A stretch of 64,000 nt of DNA from Dinoroseobacter shibae DFL 12 = DSM 16493 (GTDB lineage: Bacteria; Pseudomonadota; Alphaproteobacteria; Rhodobacterales; Rhodobacteraceae): the NCBI RefSeq assembly GCF_000018145.1, contig NC_009952.1, positions 377,501-441,500 on the forward strand. Reading direction: 5' to 3'. Both the position numbers and the translations under genes were made by a program. The notes under the pieces are model-generated. The model was not told the DNA's origin, ran no database searches, and saw nothing but the letters and a program-made list of their open reading frames with translations. Within the stretch, counting starts at the first letter, position 1. The number at the start of each line of letters is the position of its first letter. Below, one piece after another: positions 1,796-20,343 of the stretch.

Positions 1796-1872
1796 CGCGG
1801 GATGGAGCAGCCCGGTAGCTCGTCAGGCTCATAACCTGAAGGTCGTAGGTTCAAATCCTACTCCCGCAACCA
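1796..1872 (+). tRNA. tRNA-fMet (CAU), initiator
   Basis: A 77-nt cloverleaf with the CAU anticodon at 1830-1832. The acceptor stem is CGCGGG/CCCGC with an unpaired C1-A72, which is the initiator signature. The T-loop is GGTTCAAATCC and CCA is encoded at the end. Its last 45 bases are the integration target: they are repeated exactly at 8636-8680. The gene itself remains intact after integration. Confidence 0.97.
1828..1872 (+). repeat. attL core: 45-bp direct repeat inside tRNA-fMet
   Basis: This stretch, from the anticodon arm to the CCA end of tRNA-fMet, is identical to 8636-8680. The repeat stops abruptly on both sides. It is the classic footprint of site-specific integration by a tyrosine integrase into a tRNA 3' end. 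Confidence 0.92.
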
Positions 1873-1900
1873 AAAATTCAAACATTAGATCAATCTTTTA

Positions 1901-1922
1901 GCGCCTCAGGGCGCAATTTTTG
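1901..1922 (+). terminator. Hairpin terminator after tRNA-fMet
   Basis: GCGCC (1901-1905) pairs with GGCGC (1910-1914) across a TCAG loop, followed by AATTTTT. It is placed to end the rrn transcript. It lies inside element A, so the element may have supplied its own terminator on integration. Confidence 0.6.
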
Positions 1923-1938
1923 CGTTCCAACAACGGAA

Positions 1939-1962
1939 GCCGTGGAAGCTCTGTGGAAGCAA
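1939..1962 (+). repeat. GTGGAAGC double repeat near attL
   Basis: GTGGAAGC occurs twice, spaced by three bases, inside a 24-bp block that recurs at 20320-20343 with a single mismatch. A related TGGAAGC...GTGGAAG pair is at 8487-8503. The position just inside element ends suggests integrase arm-binding sites. The rest of 1963-2182 contains no convincing gene. Confidence 0.5.
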
Positions 1963-2182
1963 TCAACGCGAACTGAGGCGTGTGACGGAAAGGTTACACC
2001 ACATGCGGTTGGGGGGAACCGGCCCTTTGCCGCCGCTCAATGGTCGGCAATTCAATGGCGGCTTCGCCCCCCAATTCCAAATATTAGGCAAGCTTCCCAC
2101 TTTCTTTTTAGCGGACGTTGACGGTCAATCGATCAACCCATCAGGATAGTTGATCATCACCTATCGGACGCAGCGAGCACTT

Positions 2183-18850: not shown

Positions 18851-18923
18851 TGAATTTTTTCCAGATTGCCTCACTTGTCCTCTTCCAAAACCACTGTTGT
18901 TTCAGGGGCTTGGAAAAGGAACA

Positions 18924-20189
18924 AGTTTAGCTGTTCAGAATTCGGGGTCCAGCCGCAACCGCGTCCAGACACGACATTCGGGGGGCAAGAGTTTAGCTGT
19001 TCAGAATTCGGGGTCCAGCCGCAACAAGCGTGTGGGCGTCCCGCCCGTCAGCCACAGTTTAGCTGTTCAGAATTCGGGGTCCAGCCGCAACACATTTACC
19101 ACTCGGCGCGTTGATACCGTTAGTTTAGCTGTTCAGAATTCGGGGTCCAGCCGCAACGTGTTTGGCCATCTCCCGCAGCTTGTTGTAAGTTTAGCTGTTC
19201 AGAATTCGGGGTCCAGCCGCAACCGCACAAAAGCTCGTAGCTGATCTGAAAGAGTTTAGCTGTTCAGAATTCGGGGTCCAGCCGCAACTGAACCCATCCG
19301 CGCCTGCACTCTGACATGAGTTTAGCTGTTCAGAATTCGGGGTCCAGCCGCAACGAAATCGCAACCCGGTGCTACGCGCAACCGAGTTTAGCTGTTCAGA
19401 ATTCGGGGTCCAGCCGCAACCGTTGGCGAAGGCTCCACACATATCGAAAAGTTTAGCTGTTCAGAATTCGGGGTCCAGCCGCAACTTGAACGTTGGCGCG
19501 TGTATCCTCGTACCGAGTTTAGCTGTTCAGAATTCGGGGTCCAGCCGCAACCTGACGAACATCGCCCTGACTGACGTAAGTAGTTTAGCTGTTCAGAATT
19601 CGGGGTCCAGCCGCAACCTGCACGTCGCGCGCTCACGCCATGCCTGCAGTTTAGCTGTTCAGAATTCGGGGTCCAGCCGCAACACATCGGGCATCCGCGC
19701 CCACAAAGGAGTAAGTTTAGCTGTTCAGAATTCGGGGTCCAGCCGCAACGGAGTTCGCGCCCTCCTGCTGAACGGCGCCAGTTTAGCTGTTCAGAATTCG
19801 GGGTCCAGCCGCAAAAAAGCCGCCCTCGCCTGCGCGTGTGAGCGCAGTTTAGCTGTTCAGAATTCGGGGTCCAGCCGCAACACCGCCGCGTTGCCTTTCG
19901 CGGCTGAATAGAGTTTAGCTGTTCAGAATTCGGGGTCCAGCCGCAACACAAAGAAAGACGGTAACGGGAAAGAGCGAGTTTAGCTGTTCAGAATTCGGGG
20001 TCCAGCCGCAACGTGGCGGTGAATTTCGGCGGGTTTGCCGAGAGTTTAGCTGTTCAGAATTCGGGGTCCAGCCGCAACCGACAACGCCGACGAGAGCGGA
20101 TACGCCTGAGTTTAGCTGTTCAAAATTCGGGGTCCAGCCGCAACCCACATTTGACACGGGAACAGCGCCAACCCAGTTTAGCTGTTCAG
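18924..20189 (-). CRISPR. CRISPR array, 19 full 36-bp repeats plus a truncated one
   Basis: The 36-bp repeat reads AGTTTAGCTGTTCAG...CCAGCCGCAAC on the plus strand. Full copies start at 18924, 18990, 19056, 19122, 19188, 19253, 19319, 19385, 19450, 19516, 19582, 19648, 19714, 19780, 19846, 19912, 19977, 20043 and 20109. The 19 spacers are 29-30 bp and all different. Variants: the copy at 19780 ends in A instead of C; the copy at 20109 has one G-to-A change; the last copy (20175-20189) keeps only 15 bp. Complementarity to the tracrRNA shows that crRNA is read from the minus strand, toward cas2. On that strand each repeat ends GCTAAACT, a possible -10 element, as in other II-C arrays with promoters inside repeats. 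Confidence 0.97.
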
Positions 20190-20244
20190 CTATTTCTTCC
20201 GGAAATACGACAAACTAGCCGAGTTCGACAACGGTGGTTGCGCC

Positions 20245-20256
20245 CTCCCGCAACCA
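20245..20256 (+). repeat. 12-bp remnant of the tRNA-fMet att core
   Basis: CTCCCGCAACCA equals the last 12 bases of tRNA-fMet. On its own it could be chance, but the downstream hairpin and 24-bp GTGGAAGC block match the region after the tRNA too. With the upstream GGTTGCG it can also form a small hairpin. Confidence 0.45.
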
Positions 20257-20319
20257 AATTTTTACTCGTTTCCAAACGCTTATGCGCCGCCCTCCGGGGC
20301 GGCGTTTGCGTTTCCAGCC

Positions 20320-20343
20320 GCCGTGGAAGCACTGTGGAAGCAA
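20320..20343 (+). repeat. Second copy of the GTGGAAGC double repeat
   Basis: Matches 1939-1962 at 23 of 24 bases. An inverted GCTTCCAC follows at about 20363-20370. Likely integrase arm sites of a now-truncated element. Confidence 0.45.

Follow-up and report, generated by a model that had tools for sequence, protein, structure and literature searches.

A type II-C CRISPR-Cas system as the probable cargo of a large serine recombinase island at tRNA-fMet

The 64-kb stretch of DNA analysed here (the window) carries two insertions stacked at a tRNA-fMet gene. The outer one, reaching from 8669/8680 to 20245/20256, is with a probability of about 0.88 a genomic island that was put into the 3' end of the tRNA gene by its own large serine recombinase (LSR), with a complete type II-C CRISPR-Cas system as its main cargo. 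Movement of the CRISPR-Cas system as cargo is well supported at the level of sequence comparison: LSR attachment sites bracket the locus, a second case exists in another genome, and the flank occurs in a same-genus genome without the segment. These observations bear out a preliminary description of the locus, which had proposed stacked tRNA-fMet insertions with the CRISPR system as possible cargo and had placed the CRISPR locus between the second and third copies of the tRNA end, where the II-C system indeed lies (14125-20189).

The attachment target of both insertions is a tRNA-Met(cat) gene on the plus strand (1796..1872; ARAGORN and Rfam tRNA). Genes for 23S and 5S rRNA lie upstream, and since the tRNA directly follows the 5S rRNA (1612-1726) it can be identified as the fMet gene closing an rRNA operon. 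Its 3' end (1828-1872) is repeated exactly and in direct orientation at 8636-8680 over 45 bp, and its last 12 bases, CTCCCGCAACCA, occur three times in the window, at 1861, 8669 and 20245, all on the plus strand. A given 12-mer has a random expectation below 0.01 in the window; the weight of the 12-bp site is in any case independent of this arithmetic, because LSR islands of many relatives have the same 12-bp site at their far end. Repeat and 12-mer searches thus confirm the copies at 8636-8680 and 20245-20256 that had been reported earlier. The copies had been taken to divide a single island, and in this respect the description needs revision: they belong to two systems, in that a tyrosine-integrase element accounts for the 45-bp pair and an LSR island for the 12-bp pair. 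The reported four recombinases of three kinds are present, namely a P4-type tyrosine integrase, the LSR and two Xer-like tyrosine recombinases.

The tyrosine-integrase element, element 1 (1828..8635; 6,808 bp), is presumably the newest insertion and lies proximal to the tRNA. It is delimited by the exact 45-bp direct repeats, and its integrase gene (7265..8473, minus strand; PF00589, PF13356 Arm-DNA-bind_3; phrog_1 integrase) adjoins the right-hand repeat. An integrase gene adjoining a long direct repeat of a tRNA end is the usual form for P4-type tyrosine integrases, and element 1 has both the arm-binding domain and the long repeats of tRNA identity. It also encodes a DUF4238 protein (2150..4690, plus strand; PF14022, E=5e-15) and a Rep_trans-like replication/relaxase protein (4789..5937, minus strand; PF02486, E=1.3e-4, a weak match below the gathering cut-off). 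Three tRNA-fMet loci of a relative (G011; L083, L140 and L141) each have a second att copy of the 45-bp type 7.3-8.0 kb downstream; in L083, the only one of the three that was read through, the neighbour of this copy is a tyrosine integrase like that of element 1.

The LSR gene (8637..10385, minus strand) has resolvase, recombinase and Zn-ribbon domains (PF00239, PF07508, PF13408). It ends in 13 codons read from the antisense strand of tRNA-fMet (VAGVGFEPTTFRL), with the stop codon within the tRNA copy. The 45-bp copy at 8636..8680 on the plus strand is read both as the attR of element 1 and, together with the sequence from 8681 onward, as the attL of the LSR island. At the far end, an element-side attP arm (20190..20244), ending in GGTTGCGCC, an inverted repeat of the core end CGCAACC, precedes the attR core CTCCCGCAACCA (20245..20256, plus strand), which is the only sequence that attL and attR share. 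The site at 20245-20256 is shaped like an LSR attR, and the island measures 11,576 bp from core to core (8669..20244, with cores at 8669-8680 and 20245-20256). Structure and att forms are read directly from the DNA. In our model, the LSR would recombine the attP of a circle with the tRNA-fMet end, giving an attL in which the full tRNA 3' end runs into the LSR gene and an attR composed of 12 bp of tRNA end followed by the old flank. Since the last 12 bases of the tRNA are part of attP, the gene would remain intact. A later P4-type tyrosine-integrase element entering the same tRNA would have copied 45 bp and pushed the LSR island outward, creating the stack. As each new insertion enters at the tRNA and displaces older ones, we infer the order right flank, LSR-CRISPR island, element 1; that the island is still mobile, and that the LSR does the work alone, with or without the tyrosine pair, are likewise inferred.

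The same att forms are found widely in relatives. The LSR was searched for in 295 genomes of the family and the best 30 loci were examined for tRNA; tRNA-fMet DNA stands at the 3' end of the LSR gene in 27 of these 30, be it the full gene, its 3' part of 45 bp or a 24-bp stretch of 83% identity in the degenerate locus L096. In 37 genomes searched for the 12-mer CTCCCGCAACCA, many LSR loci proved to have it again, in the same orientation, at 17-68 kb downstream of the LSR. All 13 second sites read out in relatives have the 12-bp form seen at 20245, with non-tRNA DNA before the core, although in L134 the bases just ahead of the core coincidentally agree with the tRNA. Many are then followed by sequence resembling the DNA downstream of tRNA-fMet elsewhere. 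Furthermore, the arms before the core in L129, L131 and L132 (GGTTGCGCC or GGTTGCACC; GGTTGC(G/A)CC) match the arm before 20245. An attL at the tRNA and a far-end attR with a short shared core are thus both in place in the window, as expected of a tRNA LSR island.

The flank past the island (20257..20361) is discussed below with the same-genus genomes. A 24-bp near-repeat (1939-1962 and 20320-20343) follows each of the two tRNA ends at a comparable distance and accounts for the limit of 20343 given in the preliminary description. The GTGGAAGC motif within it (1942-1960 and 20323-20342) was at first read as integrase arm sites, but it also lies 3' of tRNA-fMet elsewhere: in its double, TGGAAGC-type form it is found downstream of the gene in 3 of 3 operons in G018 and 1 of 2 in G008. 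It may be an integrase arm site or ordinary tRNA-fMet trailer sequence. Outside the island lies an IS3-family insertion sequence (20426..21648, plus strand; PF01527/PF00665), of which further 100% copies are present elsewhere in the genome. Further out, the right flank encodes a Fasciclin-domain protein with RTX calcium-binding repeats (28754-30286).

The cargo comprises Cas9, Cas1, Cas2, a tracr anti-repeat and an array, spanning 14125-20189. The probable tracrRNA (14125..14208, minus strand; anti-repeat 14186-14208) is followed on the plus strand by cas9 (14298..17537; 1079 aa with RuvC and HNH motifs; PF13395, PF18541; TIGR01865), a type II cas1 (17583..18509; TIGR03639, E=5e-67) and cas2 (18506..18850; PF09827). 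The array (18924..20189) has 19 full 36-bp repeats, spacers of 29-30 bp and a last repeat cut after ~15 bp. Neither csn2 nor cas4 was found, and no further gene lies between cas2 and the array; with its HNH and RuvC Cas9, type II cas1, cas2, array and tracr anti-repeat the system is of type II-C. The spacers had no match in phage records or elsewhere in their own genome. The terminal repeat (20174-20189) breaks off mid-repeat, ~56 bp short of the attR core; L046 and L049 have other array ends.

Related cassettes have a sharp upstream edge. Homology begins at 14123-14128 in many relatives, and DNA similarity to L046-L051 starts abruptly at 14125-14128, at the end of the probable tracrRNA, and extends into the array. 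The genome collection holds 28 Cas9 relatives, with cas9 up to 84% identical and the named ones mostly from Rhodobacteraceae. L047 and L048 carry the same cassette in genomes without any relative of the LSR, and related cassettes with ~67% DNA identity reside on plasmids, mostly of Pseudosulfitobacter. The cassette therefore has several vehicles: LSR islands, LSR-free genomes and, more distantly, plasmids. Occurrence of the same cassette elsewhere with unrelated flanks had been set against the cargo interpretation in advance; such occurrences exist (L047, L048, plasmids), but they indicate several vehicles, and the cargo interpretation stands. The plasmid CP069018.1 and similar Pseudosulfitobacter plasmids carry a related II-C cas9, with IS66-family transposase genes within the matched stretch in many records.

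A second instance of the arrangement is seen directly in the metagenome-assembled genome HGW-Alphaproteobacteria-1 (L049), whose cas9 is 83% identical. Its LSR ends in tRNA-fMet at 13695-13771 and a 12-bp core lies at 639-650, and with LSR att sites at both ends the whole cassette (cas9-cas1-cas2-array) is enclosed between them. This island holds a Mob_Pre relaxase gene and lacks the tyrosine pair. The orientation of the cassette relative to the LSR is opposite to that in the window, so that a separate capture or an inversion must be assumed and the two islands are not one vertically inherited island.

The comparison of the tRNA-fMet locus across relatives that had been suggested as a check yields a same-genus locus without the segment. 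In G003, a 45-bp tRNA end is joined directly to sequence 94% identical to 20247-20361, the flank of 20257..20361 included. This tRNA end is the att copy of another tyrosine-integrase element, and G003 thus provides the flank without the LSR island, not a virgin tRNA site. Judged by its sequence, the G003 junction is the structure predicted for the window after island excision. Both Cas9 and a close LSR are absent from all 5 same-genus genomes, G003 included. In these assemblies, which are fragmented at rRNA operons, no part of the right flank 20190-40000 adjoins tRNA-fMet except the 105-bp tail in G003.

Next to the LSR, on the same strand, lie genes for two Xer-like tyrosine recombinases, A (10410..11534, minus strand; PF00589, E=1e-8, with the R-HxxR-H-Y residues present) and B (11479..13158, minus strand; PF00589, E=4e-11), which has a long N-terminus. 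They are accompanied by a small ORF of 115 aa (13174..13521, minus strand), for which a 46% identical homologue occupies the same place in L158 (tblastn). Among the 15 strong matches to recombinase B in the family, 11 have the pair directly before an fMet LSR on the same strand, and only 3 changes are needed to explain its presence on the LSR tree. The pair probably represents helper or accessory recombinases of the island, not a chance transposon.

Three other histories of the locus deserve consideration. The CRISPR locus could be resident chromosomal DNA trapped between two independent tRNA insertions, as the preliminary description had allowed, with the site at 20245 an unrelated scrap of tRNA. 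The island's lack of transfer genes would fit, and the right edge of the cassette, cut mid-repeat ~56 bp from the core, could be a breakpoint. Relatives largely refute this and leave it very improbable: none of the same-genus genomes has Cas9, in G003 the flank follows a tRNA end with the segment missing, relatives have LSR attR sites of exactly the 12-bp form seen at 20245, and L049 shows the arrangement a second time. It is also improbable, if less so, that the tyrosine pair and small ORF (10410-13521) are a separate Tn554-like or GInt-like transposon that brought the CRISPR cassette into or next to the LSR island. The combination of two unequal tyrosine recombinases and a small ORF is indeed reminiscent of the gene sets of Tn554 or GInts (PMC3414803, PMC5385486), and in 4 of the 15 strong matches the pair is not next to this LSR. 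However, in the other 11 the pair stands immediately ahead of the fMet LSR, its presence fits the LSR tree with just 3 changes, the L049 cassette sits in an LSR island without the pair, and a search for the repeat ends of a separate transposon found none. The pair was first taken for an inserted Tn554, which was dropped as the main reading because the pair is co-inherited with the LSR.

More difficult to set aside, though we doubt it, is the possibility that the LSR element is a dead remnant and that nothing but the 45-bp sites, or homologous recombination between the rRNA operons, now moves the stack, if it moves at all. No transfer gene or relaxase was recognised in 8681-20256 by domain search, and element 1 separates attL from the tRNA. 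The segment accordingly lacks the relaxase of an integrative mobilizable element, which L049 has in Mob_Pre. Against a dead remnant, the LSR reading frame is intact with its catalytic YARYS motif, and both att halves that an LSR needs lie within the 45-bp copy and the arm 20190-20256. Since both LSR att sites still look complete, excision of 8681-20256 is possible in principle.

The LSR-CRISPR island shares features with several known systems. The gene order of Tn554 is tnpA-tnpB-tnpC, and the transcription order here, small-long-short and then the LSR, is the reverse. The long and normal tyrosine recombinase genes side by side and the small third gene are as in Tn554-related transposons (PMC3414803). 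Sizes are similar; in a comparison with family models, general integrase and Xer models alone matched the pair, and no curated Tn554 model did. GInts (ginABCD) have three tyrosine recombinases (PMC5385486) and likewise combine an operon of several recombinases and a small ORF at one island end with variable cargo and short (10-11 nt) flanking repeats; the present island differs in its target, tRNA-fMet, and has two tyrosine recombinases and one LSR, or in other cases an LSR alone, in place of three tyrosine recombinases with GinD. Islander/TIGER-type tRNA-gene islands are described as tyrosine-integrase islands (PMC4383910); they share the tRNA 3' end target, its restoration by element sequence and the displaced fragment that marks the far end, and differ from the present island with its large serine recombinase and 12-bp shared core. 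SCCmec also moves cargo at one chromosomal site with serine recombinases (Ccr), and the LSR scores as CcrB-like (NCBIfam) below the cut-off, but the SCCmec target is rlmH rather than tRNA-fMet, and host group and cargo differ. Rhodobacteraceae type II-C loci have the same cas9-cas1-cas2-array order with tracr upstream on the opposite strand; here and in L049 the locus is bracketed by LSR attachment sites. As a stack at a tRNA site the arrangement is of an ordinary kind; less usual are the LSR family, its recombinase trio and the tail encoded by its target. A literature search lying mostly outside the subscription journals found nothing on the LSR family or the tail, which is weak evidence of novelty.

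The tail was analysed in 27 LSR loci with a readable junction, L049 and the window included. In all 27 the LSR enters the tRNA antisense in one and the same frame, ending VAG[VAT]GFEP[TAV][TA]FRL-stop; one of them, L097, has its frame broken further upstream. Distant class members at tRNA-fMet (e.g. L180, L181) keep the frame with a slightly changed tail, and several members, which show no tRNA-fMet, may have different targets. The linker just before the tail has no conserved sequence and varies from 18 to 59 residues, with 13 lengths among the 26 intact proteins and at least 14 changes of length on the LSR tree. All three frames reach a stop in the tRNA, so that length changes shifting the frame would have been possible; none is found among these proteins. 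A constant frame despite linker changes suggests, as a pattern of sequence conservation, that the tail or the core is under selection.

In an excised circle the LSR frame would run on into the other attP arm and acquire a different tail, predicted here as VAGGRNHRCRTRLVCRISGRNS. As the frame always enters the tRNA in the same way, integration should swap the C-terminal tail of the enzyme. In L120, nearly identical to L106, a tail of the circle type (VAGGRSRRS...) precedes a second tRNA tail, which looks like a natural trace of tail exchange. More tentatively, and on balance doubtfully, integration might act as a protein switch, in which the tRNA tail VAGVGFEPTTFRL and the circle tail VAGGRNHRCRTRLVCRISGRNS would differ in activity, stability or direction, with the co-inherited tyrosine pair assisting. 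The target-encoded tail makes it testable whether integration alters the integrase protein.

The implications extend beyond this locus. The locus illustrates how immunity based on Cas9 can pass between Rhodobacteraceae on an island that inserts site-specifically, with att sites that are defined and an enzyme open to testing, and an LSR with a conserved tRNA-fMet attB could serve as an integration tool. More generally, tRNA-fMet is an accretion site for LSR islands with defence and other genes. Among the contents of other tRNA-fMet LSR islands (L149-L152) are a type III methyltransferase, copper or sulfatase genes and the candidate defence genes PDC-S46, PDC-S49 and Dsr1. In G018, at least 7 LSR-type 12-bp cores lie on one strand within ~305 kb (C1:2219960-2525082; L135-L137, L142, L143, L196-L202), mostly preceded by similar attP-like arms, an apparent tandem accretion of LSR islands.
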